Positions 5,943-21,385 of a DNA stretch of 36,709 nucleotides are shown here, one piece after another. The position numbers and the translations under genes are program-made. Source of the DNA: Candidatus Omnitrophota bacterium (GTDB lineage Bacteria > Omnitrophota > Gorgyraeia > 2-02-FULL-51-18); assembly GCA_016180585.1 (NCBI GenBank), contig JACPAX010000084.1:1-36709 (forward strand), written 5' to 3'. The notes under the pieces are model-generated. The model was not told where the DNA came from. It saw only the letters and a program-made list of their open reading frames with translations, and did not search any database. Position 1 is the first letter of the stretch. Every line of letters begins with the position of its first letter.

Positions 5943-6938
5943 ATGGAACAAGGGCTGCTGCGCCGGGACGCGTTGATGGACATGGACGGATTTATCGAAA
6001 AACAGCTCCATTTCCTGAAGCCCGTGGAGACCTGCTGGCAGCCGAGCGACGTCCTACCGAACATGGCCGCCGAAGACTGGGACGAGACCGTCAAGCAACT
6101 CCGTCTCAGGGCCTCCGCGCTCTCCGATGAGCTTCTGGTGATTCTCGTCGGCAATCTCGTCACCGAAGAGGCGCTGCCCTCCTACCAGACGTGGCTCAAC
6201 CGTCCCGCCGGGTTCAAAGACGAGACGGGCGTAAGCCCCGCCCCCTGGGCCGTCTGGACGAGGTCCTGGACCGCCGAGGAGAACCGGCACGGGGAGGTCC
6301 TCAACAAATACCTGTACCTTTCGGGACGCGTGGACATGCGCTCGGTCGAGCTCACCACCCAATACCTCATCCGCAACGGTTTTGACCTGAAATCGGGAAA
6401 CGACCCCTACCAATCGATCGTTTACGTCGCCTTTCAGGAAAGGGCCACCAAGATTTCGCATGCCAATACGGGGAAACTCGCCGAAAGAGACGGCGACCAG
6501 ACCCTGGGAAAAATATGCGCGCTGATCGCCTCGGACGAGGCGCGCCATGAAGAGGCCTACAAACGCTTTTTTGGCTGCGTCGTCGAGGCGGACCCGTCCG
6601 CGGCCGTGATTGCGTTCGCGCGGATGATGAGGCAAAAGATCGCGATGCCCGCGCGGCTCATGTCCGACGGGACGGACAGAAATCTTTTTAATCAGTTCGC
6701 CGTGGTGGCGCAAAAAAGCGGGGTCTATACGACAAGGGATTACGCGGCCATTATCAAGCACTTGGTGGAGTTCTGGAACATCGCGGGGCTTCTGGGTCTC
6801 TCGAGCGAGGCGACGCAGTCCCAGGAATTTTTATGCGGCCTGGAGAAGCGCTACCTCGACAAAGCCGACCGCATCGAAGAGGCCGTTTTCAACCTTCCGA
6901 GGGAGCCCTTCCGCTGGATCTTCGACCGCTGCGCCTAG
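5943..6938 (+). CDS. Soluble (plant-type) acyl-ACP desaturase family, di-iron
   Basis: 331 aa; di-iron motifs EENRHGEVLNKYLYLSG and DEARHEEAYKRFFG; W/D-rich N-terminus. Confidence 0.9.
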   Translation: MEQGLLRRDALMDMDGFIEKQLHFLKPVETCWQPSDVLPNMAAEDWDETVKQLRLRASALSDELLVILVGNLVTEEALPSYQTWLNRPAGFKDETGVSPAPWAVWTRSWTAEENRHGEVLNKYLYLSGRVDMRSVELTTQYLIRNGFDLKSGNDPYQSIVYVAFQERATKISHANTGKLAERDGDQTLGKICALIASDEARHEEAYKRFFGCVVEADPSAAVIAFARMMRQKIAMPARLMSDGTDRNLFNQFAVVAQKSGVYTTRDYAAIIKHLVEFWNIAGLLGLSSEATQSQEFLCGLEKRYLDKADRIEEAVFNLPREPFRWIFDRCA

Positions 6939-14892: not shown

Positions 14893-15506
14893 TCACCCGG
14901 TCTTTTGAAGCGTAAAATCGAACGTGTTGGTCTCGCCGTCCGCCACGGTGATTTGGGCCGTCTGCGTCCCCAGTTTTTCATGCCAAACTTCGATCGTGTA
15001 AGCGCCCGCCGGCAGGCCGTCGATCCGGTAGCTGCCGTCGTCGCCGGTCACCGCATAGAATGGGTGATCCAGCACATGGATGAACGAGGCCATCCAAAAG
15101 TGGACATCGCAGCGCATCTTAATGCCGATCTCCGGCTGCGCAAAGGTCTTGGCGGTCGTCATGCCCTGTATGGGCTGAGCGATATTGAACGCTTTGTTGA
15201 CTTTGGACTCCGACCGCACGTTATGCAAAACCGGGTCGCTGTTTTTGAAAATTCCTTCACATAGACCAATGTCCACTTGACGGTCCGGTTCGGGTTCACG
15301 ACCAATTCCTCGGATACCGGCATCCGGTCGCCATGCATCGCCGCGCACTGCTTCTCCGCGCCGAAATTGATCGGCTTGGGAGCCGGCGTTTCTCCCTCAA
15401 ACGCGACTTTGCCGCTCAACACGGCCGCCTGGGCCGTCAGCGCTCCGAATCCCATTAAAACACATCCCGCCAGTACGCCGAAAATAACCTTGTAATTCCC
15501 GTTCAT
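14893..15506 (-). pseudogene. Secreted cupredoxin-like/carboxypeptidase-regulatory-like protein, frame-disrupted
   Basis: N-terminal half (15159..15506: signal peptide, ...VKWTLVYVKE) and C-terminal half (KNSDPVLHNV...MRCDVHFWMASFIHVLDHPFYAVTGDDGSYRIDGLPAGAYTIEVWHEKLG) are in different frames. Confidence 0.7.
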
Positions 15507-15964
15507 TTCGCTTCCTCCTTTGTCAAATCCAACCACTCATTCCAATGGAGCACACGCCCGGTTTTCTCTTTGGCAAATCTCCGGGCGTTCTCCCCGGCCG
15601 CAAACGCCGCCAACCCATAGCCCATCGGAGTCGCCAGATCCCGTGAATGAACAAAATGCGCCTCCTCCGTCCCGATCCAGACGTCCGCGCCGGCGTCCCG
15701 CACCCAGGACCGAAGCGCTCGTTCTTCGGATGAATTTTTATAAGCCGCCAAACACCCGATATCATCAAATTTTTGGAAACGCCCGTCGGCCGATACGGCC
15801 GCGCAGGCGAACCGCTGATCCTCGATGATCATGCGGCACCGGGCGCAAACGTCGCGGCCGTAGAAAATCTTAGGCGGCCTTGAAAGGTCTGTCTTGCCGC
15901 AACCGGCAAGCGCGGCCGCTCCCAGGCAAAACACAAGGACGGCCCAAATCTTCAGTCCGCGCAT
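15503..15964 (-). CDS. nosL: NosL copper chaperone lipoprotein
   Basis: From MRGLKIWAVL; lipobox LAGCGK; YGRDVCARCRMIIEDQRFA; ATPMGYG. ORF track 15503..16048. Confidence 0.9.
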   Translation of the reverse strand: MRGLKIWAVLVFCLGAAALAGCGKTDLSRPPKIFYGRDVCARCRMIIEDQRFACAAVSADGRFQKFDDIGCLAAYKNSSEERALRSWVRDAGADVWIGTEEAHFVHSRDLATPMGYGLAAFAAGENARRFAKEKTGRVLHWNEWLDLTKEEAK

Positions 15965-16782
15965 CGGCGGCCAAAAAAAACAAGCGCGGCGCCGAGCGGC
16001 GCCAGTATCCACACACACAGGATGCCTCCCAAGACGACAGCCAACCACGGCCCAAAAAGCTCCGACGCATACAGCCCGGCCGGACCGAATGATTCAAGAC
16101 TCTTTTGCAGCGCCCCTATCACGGCGAGCTTGAACGACTGCGCGGGGTTGATCAGAACCGCCCAGAAAAGTTCGTTTGGCGAAAGCCTCAAAACGATCGC
16201 CGTTCCCATCAGACCCAGGTCGCTCAAGAAAATGAAAGTAAACCACAGAAAAAGCGCGGCGCCCACGGCCGTCGCCTGGCGGCGTGTGAACACGGACAAA
16301 AGAAATCCCAGGCTCAAATACGAAAGCCCCAGAAGCGTCGTAAACGCGATCAGCCTCAGATAATCTCCAATCTCCTGCGCGCCCGCGTAACGCGCGATGA
16401 CCACGGCGCTCGCGCCAAAACCCAGGAGGATCGTTGAAACCAGCGCCGACGCGGCGCCCAGGTACTTGCCGATAAAAACTTCGCCCACGGTCACCGGCTG
16501 CGCCAATAAGGTGATCAGCGTGCCCTGCTCGCGCTCGCCGGCAATGCTCATCGCCCCCAAAAGCAGGCCCATCAGCGGCACGATGAGCAGCACCAGATTC
16601 AAGAGGCTCGCGGCCGTGCGGCCGAATCCCGATATCCCGAGCGAGCCCAAGCCCGCCAAACCCAAGAGGCTCAATGAAACGGATAAAAGCGCAAACAACG
16701 CCGACACGACGATAAACCAGCGGTTGCGCCGCGCGTCGCGCGTCTCTTTGAGGGATAAGAGCCACACCGCTCCCAACCTCAC
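15952..16782 (-). CDS. nosY: NosY ABC-2 type permease
   Basis: Likely GTG start (VRLGAVWLLSLKE) overlapping the nosF stop; AGEREQGTLITLLAQPVTVGEVFIGKYLG, C-terminal TMs. ORF track 15952..16905. Confidence 0.9.
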   Translation of the reverse strand: MRLGAVWLLSLKETRDARRNRWFIVVSALFALLSVSLSLLGLAGLGSLGISGFGRTAASLLNLVLLIVPLMGLLLGAMSIAGEREQGTLITLLAQPVTVGEVFIGKYLGAASALVSTILLGFGASAVVIARYAGAQEIGDYLRLIAFTTLLGLSYLSLGFLLSVFTRRQATAVGAALFLWFTFIFLSDLGLMGTAIVLRLSPNELFWAVLINPAQSFKLAVIGALQKSLESFGPAGLYASELFGPWLAVVLGGILCVWILAPLGAALVFFGRRCAD

Positions 16783-18806
16783 GGCATCCTCCTCGCCAAA
16801 TAGGCGCCTACCGATTCCGGCCGCCCTTCGGCTTTCAGGACACCGCCTTCGAGCACGATCACGCGGTCCGCGCTTTTTTGCACTTCCACCGCGCGGTGCG
16901 TGCAAAATACGAGCGTCTTTCCGGCCGCCTTGAGCCGCTCAAGACCGCGGTGAAATTCACGCCGTGTGTGCGCATCGAGATTACTGGTCGGCTCGTCCAG
17001 AAAAAGAAGCGGCGGATCCGAAAGCAGCGCGATAATAAGGGCGAGTTTCTGTTTCATCCCGCCCGAAAGATTCTGCGTCATCTCGCGACGCGACGCCGAC
17101 AGCTCCCATTCGTTCAAAAGCGTTTCCACCCGCTCGCGTGAAACATCGCGGAGCCGGGCATAAAAAGACACCGTCTCCCACACGGTCTGATCTTGATGCA
17201 GACGGATCTCCTGGGGCACATAACCGATCAGCGCGCGCGCGTCCCGGCCGCGGCGCTTGACGTCAAAACCAGCCACCTCGGCAGACCCTTCAAACCGGAC
17301 TATCCCCAAGAGACAACGCAAAAGCGTGGTCTTGCCGGCGCCGTTAGGGCCCCAAAGCGCGACGGCCTCGCCCCGGCGCACCTCGATGTCGACGCTTGAA
17401 AGCGCCTGCACTTTTTTGTAGCGCTTGCTCACTCCGCGGGCCCGAATCAACGCGGCAACCGTGCCATTCCTCGCACGGGGCGCGGGATGGTCCGCCAAGC
17501 CGGCCGGACTATCCGTCCCTCTTCTCAAGAGGCCTGCCAGCGGTAAAAAGATAAGAAACGAGAAGGCCCCCCACGCCGCGGAATGAGGCGCGCGATCGCC
17601 GGCGACCGCCACGGCGGCGGGGCGCATCCGCGGGTGTTCGTCTTCGAACTTCGGAGTCGGCGCGAACACCGGAAAGGTCGCGGCCGCGAAATCGACCGCT
17701 TGAGCGGAGGGGCCGCCCGAGAATATTCTCAAGTCATGAAAACGATCCGTCAACCGCTCAAAAAGACGCATCGGCCGATACGGGACGTCGCCCCGTCCGT
17801 CGCGATCGGCGTCAAAGCCGCGATAGTCGCTCCAATAATTTCCGGCCCAGTCGTTCAGGCTTTGCGCGCTTGGTCCGTCGATCCGCGTCTGTTCGGCGTT
17901 GTCGATGACGTTATTGCTTTCAAACCGGTTCCGCCGCGCGGTCGGCACAAGATCAAAACCGATGTCGTTATGCGCGATGATGTTGTTGCGGCAGACCATC
18001 GCCTCACAGCCGTCCAAATAAAGCCCGACGCGGTTGGACGCGACAAGATTGTTCTCGAGAAAGGCGTTCTTCATGTCCTTAAACCCGATCCCGAAGCCGC
18101 TGGGACCCCGATTGCCGGATACCGTGTTGCCGCTCAATCTCAACCCCTCGCTGTACATGAGATACGCGCCCACGGAGTTGCCGATCAAGCGGTTACCCTC
18201 CACTTCGGCGTCCCGGCAATACATGAAATGCACGCCGTAGCGGCCGTGCCGAAAGTCGTTGCCTCGCAGGTTCAAGTTCTTGGAGAACCACAGCACGACA
18301 TCACGGCCGCGCTCGGTGCGGTTATTCTCGATCAGCACGTTGTCGCTGTACCAGACACGAATAAGGTCCCCGCGCCGCGAAGTCTCGAGCGTTTTACCAA
18401 GAAAAGAATTCCCCTTGAGAACGGCCCCGGCGGCGCGGCTCAAATACACGCCGAATAAAACGTCTTCAAAACGGTTATTCTCGATCACCGGGCGCGCGCC
18501 TGCAGCCAAAATCCCCGAATTTTCGGAGGCCAAAAGATCGCCCGAGTTCCTGATCACAAAACCGCGTAAAACGACATCCGGCGCCTTGATCGTCACGACA
18601 GTTCCCTTCCCGCCTCCGTCGATGACCGGAGTGTCCCGGCCTTCACACCGCACGGATTTGGTAATCTCCAAGGGTCCCGAGTAAATCCCTTTTTCAACCA
18701 CGATCGTGTCGCCGTCCGCCGCTTTTTCCAGCGCCGATTGGATCGTGGGATAATCCGGGGCGCCGCCCGTTACAGTTTGAGCGAAACCCTCACGCGGAAA
18801 GAGGAC
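16779..18806 (-). CDS. nosD/nosF: NosD::NosF fusion: periplasmic beta-helix NosD, TM helix, ABC ATPase NosF
   Basis: Continuous ORF (track 16779..18701, 640 aa; NosD-like codons continue upstream to about 18806). NosD repeats (VIENNRFEDVLFGVYL, FGIGFKDMKNAFLENN, NYWSDYRGFDADRDGRGDVPYRP), hydrophobic WGAFSFLIFLPLAGLL, then Walker A GPNGAGKTTLL, signature LSGGMKQKLAL, Walker B LLFLDEP. Confidence 0.9.
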   Translation of the reverse strand, partial: VLFPREGFAQTVTGGAPDYPTIQSALEKAADGDTIVVEKGIYSGPLEITKSVRCEGRDTPVIDGGGKGTVVTIKAPDVVLRGFVIRNSGDLLASENSGILAAGARPVIENNRFEDVLFGVYLSRAAGAVLKGNSFLGKTLETSRRGDLIRVWYSDNVLIENNRTERGRDVVLWFSKNLNLRGNDFRHGRYGVHFMYCRDAEVEGNRLIGNSVGAYLMYSEGLRLSGNTVSGNRGPSGFGIGFKDMKNAFLENNLVASNRVGLYLDGCEAMVCRNNIIAHNDIGFDLVPTARRNRFESNNVIDNAEQTRIDGPSAQSLNDWAGNYWSDYRGFDADRDGRGDVPYRPMRLFERLTDRFHDLRIFSGGPSAQAVDFAAATFPVFAPTPKFEDEHPRMRPAAVAVAGDRAPHSAAWGAFSFLIFLPLAGLLRRGTDSPAGLADHPAPRARNGTVAALIRARGVSKRYKKVQALSSVDIEVRRGEAVALWGPNGAGKTTLLRCLLGIVRFEGSAEVAGFDVKRRGRDARALIGYVPQEIRLHQDQTVWETVSFYARLRDVSRERVETLLNEWELSASRREMTQNLSGGMKQKLALIIALLSDPPLLFLDEPTSNLDAHTRREFHRGLERLKAAGKTLVFCTHRAVEVQKSADRVIVLEGGVLKAEGRPESVGAYLARRMP

Positions 18807-19356
18807 TCACCGCGAGGGAAAGAAAAGCCGAGAGCATGCTAAGCCCGTGGCCCAGGCCAAAATTGGCATCGGCATGAAACTGGGCAATCTTCCCCTGCCC
18901 CAGGAGCGGCGGCACGAAGGGCTTGATCGAAGAGCTGAGAGCCGCGTGGGGATTCAAGTGGAGACCAAAATCCCTCAGCCAAAAATAAAGATCGGCGGCA
19001 AAAACGGCCGGCAGCACGGTCGCGGGCAAGATAAGCAGTATTGAAAACTTGCCTCGAATAAAAACAGCGGCGATCAAGCAAACGACGATGAACACGATCC
19101 CCGGCCCAGCGAACTTTTTCTCAAACTTCGCGGCGTCTCCCAAAGGCCGCATGCCGATATAATGCTTCAGATGGTCGATCTCTCCCACCTCGCCCGTGAC
19201 ATGGTCCAGATAAACCTGCACATGAAGGCCTTTGGGATATTGCGGCGCCTTCACGGTCAAATACCAATAAGGAAAAAAGACCGACGAAAGCACCGCCACT
19301 GCGGCGCCCAAAAGCAGCGCCTTCGCGATCTTTTCTTTCATCTTGGCCCCCCCCAA
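18790..19356 (-). CDS. nosB: Multi-TM protein directly downstream of nosZ, NosB-like (clade II nos)
   Basis: 188 aa, about 4 hydrophobic segments; position between nosZ and nosD matches nosB of clade II clusters. Assigned by synteny and topology, not by a motif. Confidence 0.6.
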   Translation of the reverse strand: MGGAKMKEKIAKALLLGAAVAVLSSVFFPYWYLTVKAPQYPKGLHVQVYLDHVTGEVGEIDHLKHYIGMRPLGDAAKFEKKFAGPGIVFIVVCLIAAVFIRGKFSILLILPATVLPAVFAADLYFWLRDFGLHLNPHAALSSSIKPFVPPLLGQGKIAQFHADANFGLGHGLSMLSAFLSLAVSPLSA

Positions 19357-19366
19357 CCCGATCCAA

Positions 19367-21385
19367 CTATTTTTTTGGTTTCACCATCAAATACCCGGTC
19401 ATCTCCAGATGCAGCGCCGAGCAGAATTCCAGACAATAGTAGGGATACACGCCCGGTTTTTCGGCCGTGAATTCTATCGTGACGGTCTCGCCCGGCTCGA
19501 TACTGGCGGCAATGTTGTAGCCGGCGATCGAAAAACCGTGCGTCGCGTCGATCGTTCGCTCAAGATTGGTCAAATACATCGTCACGTGCTGACCCTGCTC
19601 GATCTCGATGTGTTCGGGATCGAAATGACTGCGAATCAACGGCATGTAGACCTCGACGTGGTTGCCGTTTCTGACGATCTTGCCCTCCGTGACCATCTTG
19701 TCGCTCTTGGACTGTGTCATCGTGTTCCAGCCGATCTCCGGATAAACGTCCCAGGTTTTCAGTTTATCGGCCTTGATGATCTGGGCGTAGTGCGGTTCAC
19801 CCGAGCCCATGGGCATGTCATAAAGGACTTTGAGCGTGTCGCCGGTTTTCCCGATGTCCACCAGTTGCAGGTTCTGCGGCAACAGCGGCCCAAGCTTCGA
19901 GAAGCGGTCCACCGACCATTTGTTGAGCGCGACGAGGTGCTTGCCGTCGGGACTTACGGTGTCCCCCTCGGCCGTCGCCAAATGCCCGATATTGAACTGA
20001 ACCGGCACTTTGCTTACCAGCGTCCAGGGTTTCTCGGGCGCCCGGTATTTGTCGTCGCCGAGCGTCCAGCGCGCGACCGCGCTCTCAAGGAACAAGCTCG
20101 TATAAGCGTAGCCTTGATTATCGAACTGAGTGTGAAGCGGTCCAAGACCCAATTCCACCTGCGCTTCTTTAACTGCATCAAAACGAAGGATCGGCACCCC
20201 ATAGTCATCTTTACCCTCGAAATCCTTGGCATCGATGGCTTTTTTCATTTTCTCGAAGCTGTAGACCGTCACGTGCGGGTCGAGTTTGCCCGCGACGACC
20301 ATGTATTTGCCGCTGGGCGTCACGTCCACGCCGTGAGGGCTCTTGGGTTCGGGAATAAAATAGAGTACGCCCTCATCAACGGCGGTTTTAAGCGTAATGA
20401 GTTTAAAACCGTTTTTCGTCTCGAACTTGCCGGCTTTGATCAACTCCTCGGATTTCTTCCAATTGAACACGTGCATATAATCCATATCGCGCTGGGCCGT
20501 ACCCGCTTCAAAAGGCGGGTTGCCTTCCTCAATTCCGCCCGTGGCCATTTCGGTATTCAATGAATTCATAAAAGCCCAGCCTTCGCTCGGGCCTTTACCC
20601 GCATCGGCCAAGTCCTGCCAATAGGGAGGCAGTTCGACTGCGAATGAATTTTCGACGTCAATGCGGCCCTTTTGGCGGTCAAATTTCCAGAACGTCGCGA
20701 GCCCTCTGTATTTTTCCCTATATTGGGAGATCGGCGCGTACTCGCCGCCGAGGGGCTCCGAGTACTGCGCGCCCTCGATGACGTATTCGGTATTCGGCGT
20801 CACGAAGCAGCCGCCGTGATCGTTGTGCATCAGCGGTCCATCGGCAAACTGCTTGGTCTCGAAATCCTTCAGATCAATGACCGCGATACGGCCGTGTGAC
20901 TTGTCGCCGATGAACAGGAATTGCCCGTCATAATCCCCGTTGGTTTCGCTGAGCGCCGGGTGATGCGTATCGGCCCATCCCGCTTTCTGGCCATCGCCGC
21001 CCGTCGGCACGCTCACGAGCGGGCTTTCTTTCACGCCAAAGCCATAACCCTGCCAGGACTCGGCCTCAAACACCGCGATAGTGCGCAAAAGCCGCATCGA
21101 CGGCAGGCCGATCACAAAAATCTGGCCGCTGTGTCCGCCGGAAGCGAACATCATGTAGTCGTCGTATTGGCCGCTGGGCATAAAGGTCGAAACGGCGCCA
21201 AGAATGTCGTCGGGCTTGAGCCCTCTTTCCTGGATTACTTTCGCCGCATCGGCGGGGAGCTTGGCGTCGCTCACCACGGCGGGAGTATTTTCCACAGGTT
21301 TATCCGTCGTCCATTTGAACCCAAAACCGGCAAGCGCCGACACAAGGACCGGCGCCACCCACAACGATTTTTTCATGGCATTCAT
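19367..21385 (-). CDS. nosZ: Nitrous-oxide reductase, Sec-type (clade II-like)
   Basis: 672 aa; CuA motif YYCLEFCSALHLEMTGY; NDHGGCFVTPNTEYVIEGAQY; SPHGVDVTPSGKYMVVAGKLDPHVTVY; N-terminus MNAMKKSLWVAPVLVSALAGFGF has no twin arginine. Confidence 0.97.
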   Translation of the reverse strand: MNAMKKSLWVAPVLVSALAGFGFKWTTDKPVENTPAVVSDAKLPADAAKVIQERGLKPDDILGAVSTFMPSGQYDDYMMFASGGHSGQIFVIGLPSMRLLRTIAVFEAESWQGYGFGVKESPLVSVPTGGDGQKAGWADTHHPALSETNGDYDGQFLFIGDKSHGRIAVIDLKDFETKQFADGPLMHNDHGGCFVTPNTEYVIEGAQYSEPLGGEYAPISQYREKYRGLATFWKFDRQKGRIDVENSFAVELPPYWQDLADAGKGPSEGWAFMNSLNTEMATGGIEEGNPPFEAGTAQRDMDYMHVFNWKKSEELIKAGKFETKNGFKLITLKTAVDEGVLYFIPEPKSPHGVDVTPSGKYMVVAGKLDPHVTVYSFEKMKKAIDAKDFEGKDDYGVPILRFDAVKEAQVELGLGPLHTQFDNQGYAYTSLFLESAVARWTLGDDKYRAPEKPWTLVSKVPVQFNIGHLATAEGDTVSPDGKHLVALNKWSVDRFSKLGPLLPQNLQLVDIGKTGDTLKVLYDMPMGSGEPHYAQIIKADKLKTWDVYPEIGWNTMTQSKSDKMVTEGKIVRNGNHVEVYMPLIRSHFDPEHIEIEQGQHVTMYLTNLERTIDATHGFSIAGYNIAASIEPGETVTIEFTAEKPGVYPYYCLEFCSALHLEMTGYLMVKPKK

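Follow-up and report, generated by a model that had tools for sequence, protein, structure and literature searches.

The NosDFY complex is needed to build the main known enzyme that removes N2O, a greenhouse gas, and the coupling of ATP to NosD across the membrane is unsettled. In the best-studied bacteria NosD, which delivers copper, and NosF, the ATPase motor, are separate proteins. In the stretch of DNA analysed here, a contig of 36,709 nucleotides from a Candidatus Omnitrophota bacterium (JACPAX010000084.1, hereafter “the window”), one frame encodes both. This raises the question of whether the joining is confined to this contig or represents an architecture of its own, and whether the copy found in the window could work. 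We consider it probable that fused NosD-NosF proteins constitute a recurrent class within clade II nos clusters and that the window holds a recently joined copy which, as sequenced, is non-exportable owing to misassembly or very recent damage.

The frame lies on the minus strand, which the preliminary description had not named, and extends from stop to stop without any internal stop; the plus-strand reading of the same interval contains stops. A profile search matches its residues 22-395 to the NosD family TIGR04247 (396-398 bits, cut-off 300), and PF05048 (NosD) scores 133 bits compared to a cut-off of 23.6. Pfam ABC_tran is matched as well. The frame has all motifs of a NosF ATPase (Walker A, Q-loop, LSGG signature, Walker B, D-loop and H-switch), and none of them varies in an alignment of 37 fused proteins. 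An AlphaFold2 model calculated from the alignment of these 37 sequences (mean pLDDT 85) comprises a confidently predicted beta-helix and a likewise confident ABC domain, between which a helix (residues 410-426) and a disordered segment (429-449) are placed. A Foldseek search with the whole model returned ABC ATPases as top matches throughout, the NosF of NosDFYL (7osf_B) ranking 39. Hence, the claim that NosD, a transmembrane helix and a full NosF occupy one uninterrupted frame holds true, and the frame shows the arrangement of NosD, transmembrane (TM) helix, linker and NosF by which the fusion class is defined. It contains the only NosD copy of the assembly (1.57 Mb, 94 contigs, 81% complete). 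The coordinates of all features are given in Table 1.

Table 1. Features of the nos cluster in the window (positions refer to the whole stretch).
Feature	Position	Strand	Basis or remark
NosZ, Sec-type (clade II) nitrous oxide reductase, intact	19367..21385	-	TIGR04246, 842 bits
NosB-like 4-TM protein; C-terminus changed by 84-nt loss	18790..19356	-	homologues fused to NosD in relatives
Site of 84-nt loss compared to L032	18806..18807	-	DNA alignment
NosD-TM helix-linker-NosF open frame	16779..18806	-	675 codons, stop to stop
NosD beta-helix domain	17622..18743	-	TIGR04247 match
Single transmembrane helix WGAFSFLIFLPLAGLL / AAWGAFSFLIFLPLAGL	17529..17579	-	hydrophobic stretch and AlphaFold2 helix
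Linker LRRGTDSPAGLADHPAPRARNGTVAA, about 26 residues, predicted disordered	17451..17528	-	AlphaFold2; contains 28 nt not in L032
NosF ATPase domain	16779..17450	-	profile match (Pfam ABC_tran)
Walker A GPNGAGKT	17328..17351	-	alignment of 37 fused proteins
ABC signature LSGGMKQ	17049..17069	-	alignment of 37 fused proteins
Walker B LLFLDE	16992..17009	-	alignment of 37 fused proteins
NosY permease; GTG start overlaps NosF stop (GTGA)	15952..16782	-	Pfam match
NosL	15503..16048	-	PF05573
Gene after nosL, broken by 109-nt out-of-frame loss	14893..15536	-	intact in 7 relatives

The cluster has the order NosZ, NosB-like protein, NosD-NosF, NosY, NosL and is of the clade II type. The ATPase domain also has the gene context of a NosF, next to nosD, with nosY overlapping and both nosL and nosZ adjacent. 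The gene following nosL encodes a protein with a CarboxypepD_reg-like C-terminal part and is kept in the nos clusters of Omnitrophota, the phylum to which the relatives of the assembly belong; its homologues share a conserved C-x-F-x-P-H segment. We would like to mention three further observations made in the window. HipA is encoded on the minus strand (1322-2600) as two genes, Couple_hipA (2184-2600) and the HipA_C kinase part (1322-2173), resembling HipS/HipT. An acyl-ACP desaturase of the plant-type family FA_desaturase_2 (432 bits) is encoded in this Omnitrophota genome at 5943-6938 (plus strand). On the same strand (54-1299), a transposase-like frame (349-1299) overlaps a long frame beginning at 54, which by eye suggests a frameshift in the 5' part of the former.

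The preliminary description had regarded the frame as coding for a working membrane-spanning polypeptide. This finds no support, as the frame has neither start nor signal peptide and a broken gene is located nearby. Upstream of GTG 18701, which is situated inside mature NosD, the NosD frame contains no ATG, GTG or TTG, and no signal peptide for NosD export was found in the window frame. The usable start and N-terminal hydrophobic export signal present in the fused frame of L054 and others are thus missing, and the relatives L032 and L034 possess both start and signal peptide of nosD. In L032, the closest relative found (72% identity over the NosD query, 76% in the core), nosB, nosD and nosF are separate genes. 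Since this sister is unfused, the joining in the window appears to be recent. Alignment of the DNA of both reveals that 84 nt of L032, comprising the end of nosB as well as start codon and signal peptide of nosD, are absent from the window; a search for this segment elsewhere in the assembly yielded its left flank only. At the junction of nosD and nosF the window has 28 nt more than L032 (17483-17510), and in the gene after nosL it lacks 109 nt at 15252/15253, a segment conserved in seven relatives, whose out-of-frame loss leads to a frameshift. Because start and signal peptide of nosD are missing, the window copy, as sequenced, is not exportable, and it is unlikely to yield a fusion that is exported and works. 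In nosZ, nosD, nosF and nosY the amino-acid changes unique to the window do not outnumber those unique to L032; they are slightly more numerous in nosB (10 versus 7) and nosL (7 versus 6). Synonymous changes outnumber amino-acid changes in nosZ, nosB, nosD, nosF and nosY; in nosL they are not in excess (40 versus 54 codons). The branch of the window is not longer than that of its sister, and its amino-acid changes show no marked excess. Nothing in the substitutions points to a long-standing decay; the lesions are therefore of very recent origin or stem from assembly, the locus having been broken just lately or misassembled at this place.

To place the joining in a wider context, a NosD-alignment scan of 84,980 species genomes was carried out, from whose 252 relatives the best 80 were kept. 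Of the related loci kept, 42 encode NosD and NosF in a single frame (43 of 81 with the window included), a share of about half which is not a rate for all NosD because the sample is biased towards relatives of the window. The fused loci are distributed over eight phyla (Omnitrophota, Planctomycetota, Chloroflexota, Calditrichota, Acidobacteriota, Armatimonadota, Vulcanimicrobiota and Tectimicrobiota); most originate from MAGs, yet the complete genome of an isolate (L054, Ca. Lucifugimonas marina JH1073) and a complete MAG (L052) are included. The isolate belongs to the cultured SAR202 bacteria, which have been reported to carry NosZ (PMC10444878). All nine fused frames examined in full possess start codons and N-terminal hydrophobic stretches, and in seven of the fused genomes no other frame matches NosF better than the fused one. 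In a first set of relatives NosD and NosF are unfused, four of them having the NosB-like protein fused to NosD. A pure assembly artefact as a general account, to which the unfused nearest relatives might point, is ruled out by the 42 other fused loci, and a one-off fusion is not supported either, the architecture being far more general than the preliminary description had assumed.

In a tree of the NosD core, the state changes 14 times between fused and separate, counted without regard to direction (gain or loss), compared to a mean of 26.3 changes for shuffled labels, and none of 500 shufflings gave a number as low. Well-supported branches force at least 8 of these 14 changes. A single origin with all fused rows in one clade was rejected (p-AU 4e-56). 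Wholly fused clades are formed by Lucifugimonadaceae, Calditrichota and the Acidobacteriota set. The fusion state is inherited and recurrent. As the architecture is common to 42 of the 80 loci and follows phylogeny, chance is not behind the joining of NosD and NosF as an architecture.

The anatomy of unfused NosDs suggests why such a fusion may arise easily. In our sample they mostly end in a C-terminal TM helix followed by a short, often basic tail, and such a helix has also been described for NosDs of Bacillus (PMC3475470). The exceptions seen are NosDs anchored by an N-terminal NosB fusion. In all 43 fused proteins the linker region consists of a hydrophobic helix followed by 9-73 residues. 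Since the tail of an unfused NosD would already be on the cytoplasmic side, together with NosF, removal of the nosD stop should suffice for fusion and, if in frame, be topologically harmless. In the mechanism we propose, the nosD stop would be lost in frame with the adjoining nosF, whereby the ATPase would become tethered to the periplasmic copper-delivery domain via one helix and a flexible linker of 9-73 residues. The fused protein, presumably expressed as one chain, is predicted to act within NosDFY, where it would, along with NosL, use ATP to assemble the copper sites of NosZ.

Joining is not restricted to NosD and NosF. L033, L035-L039, L043, L044, L046, L065, L088 and L090 as well as L004-L007 carry the NosB-like 4-TM protein as an in-frame N-terminal extension of NosD, and in several of these fusions NosD is devoid of its C-terminal TM helix. 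In an Armatimonadota MAG (Fimbriimonadia; L046:2239-6144) a single frame of about 1300 residues even comprises the NosB-like protein, NosD, NosF and NosY, with the Pfam order NosD, ABC_tran, ABC2_membrane_2, which would make the whole ABC machine a single chain. The NosB-NosD, NosB-NosD-NosF and NosB-NosD-NosF-NosY frames (L033, L035-L039, L046) contain the same modules in operon order and differ from the window frame in that more of them are joined.

That the joining in the window results from a local assembly error, short stretches having been lost or added in building the contig and true nosB, nosD and nosF being separate or joined differently, is possible but less likely than not. In its favour are three differences in length (-84, -109 and +28 nt) that fall within 3.6 kb of the nos cluster, the fragmented and incomplete state of the MAG, the full length, judged by eye, of most other genes in the window, and the fact that its nos proteins evolve no faster than those of the unfused sister. 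Inspection by hand of the TM/linker region reveals stops only a few codons from the helix in both other frames; an error of a single base at this place would thus likewise have joined nosD and nosF. However, the 28 nt at the junction look like ordinary coding sequence free of stops, and with fusion being common in related lineages the junction may well be right even if the two other sites are wrong. Should the lesions be real, the accessory genes might be decaying, with NosD and NosF as parts of a recent pseudogene. The lack of a nosD start and signal peptide and the frameshift after nosL would agree with this, but we hold it for unlikely, given that NosZ, NosY, NosL and the frame of 675 codons are stop-free, that synonymous changes prevail in all nos genes except nosL, and that the branch is not lengthened. 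Finally, the abutting NosB and NosD frames might be thought to represent a NosB-NosD-NosF triple fusion split by one sequencing frameshift near 18790-18806, since such triple fusions occur in the Omnitrophota loci L036 and L037 and in others. This is highly improbable: the genes of the sister are separate, and the missing 84 nt cover a cytoplasmic loop and a TM segment, so that the frames joined as they stand would put NosD on the wrong side of the membrane.

A further reading concerns the product rather than the DNA: the frame could be continuous but give two products, with NosF made from an internal start and the fusion being incidental. PDB entries of the complex contain 16 NosD chains (16 entries) and 30 NosF chains (15 entries), i.e. 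one NosD per two NosF, which bears out the stoichiometry of one NosD per NosF2Y2 given in the preliminary description and also the deduction that an obligate fusion would imply D2F2Y2. In part of the fused loci, ATG codons with Shine-Dalgarno sequences are indeed enriched at the NosF border. Among the 42 fused loci, ATG accounts for 24 of 630 codons at this border compared to 389 of 27601 (odds ratio 2.8, p 2e-5); these ATGs have a median Shine-Dalgarno energy of -6.3 versus -2.3 kcal/mol (p 9e-8), and of -5.6 versus -4.4 when compared to synonymous recoding of the same residues (p 0.001). All these p-values are optimistic as related sequences were counted separately, and the energies assume the standard anti-Shine-Dalgarno sequence. 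In the window, TTG 17450, proposed earlier as a start to be checked, coincides with the ancestral nosF start in that it exactly matches the position of the nosF ATG in L003 and aligns with the nosF start of L034; its Shine-Dalgarno sequence is weak. In contrast, if a plausible internal start is taken to be one that lies between -20 and +7 and pairs at -4.5 or better (a threshold of our choice), none is present in 20 of the 43 fused loci, the window included, and L057, L069 and L074 have no start codon at all near the NosF border. As the true nosF start of L034 scores only -2.2, these 20 loci represent an upper bound for the obligate-fusion group. Two products at all fused loci are therefore not supported, and we regard the incidental fusion as somewhat unlikely. 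It is likely, judging from these start signals, that two designs exist: one yielding the fused protein plus free NosF, which would keep the ratio of 1:2 (D1F2Y2) in loci with an internal start, a possible one being retained at the NosF border by about half of the fused loci, and an obligate fusion, which would assemble as (DF)2Y2, i.e. 2:2:2, in loci devoid of one. Outside ABC transporters there is a precedent for subunit ratios being set in this way, by internal initiation that yields a second, shorter product (PMC4295842). Tentatively, and with confidence falling a little short of even, we propose that obligate-fusion lineages build a symmetric (DF)2Y2 with two NosD arms while their relatives keep 1:2 by internal initiation, so that gain or loss of one stop codon would toggle the stoichiometry.

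Returning to the recurrent fusion class, its components closely resemble those of known systems. The NosDFY complex of Pseudomonas stutzeri (PDB 7O0Y and related entries) likewise combines a NosD beta-helix and a NosF ATPase with an adjoining NosY gene, NosL and NosZ. There, however, NosD and NosF occur as individual chains at a ratio of 1:2, whereas in the window a TM helix and a linker connect them within one frame. The clade II clusters of Wolinella, Bacillus and Flavobacterium share with the window the Sec-type NosZ, the NosB-like 4-TM protein beside NosD and the C-terminal TM helix of NosD; a D-F fusion is not described in the papers found on them. The known nos fusion is NosB-NosL (PMC9697520). 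No report of a NosD-NosF fusion was found in the open literature searched. The natural fusions would tether both ends of the machine, the copper-delivering and the ATP-consuming one, and fix their ratio at 1:1 wherever no internal start exists. They make both stoichiometry and coupling directly testable, and the cultured Ca. Lucifugimonas marina carries such a fusion.
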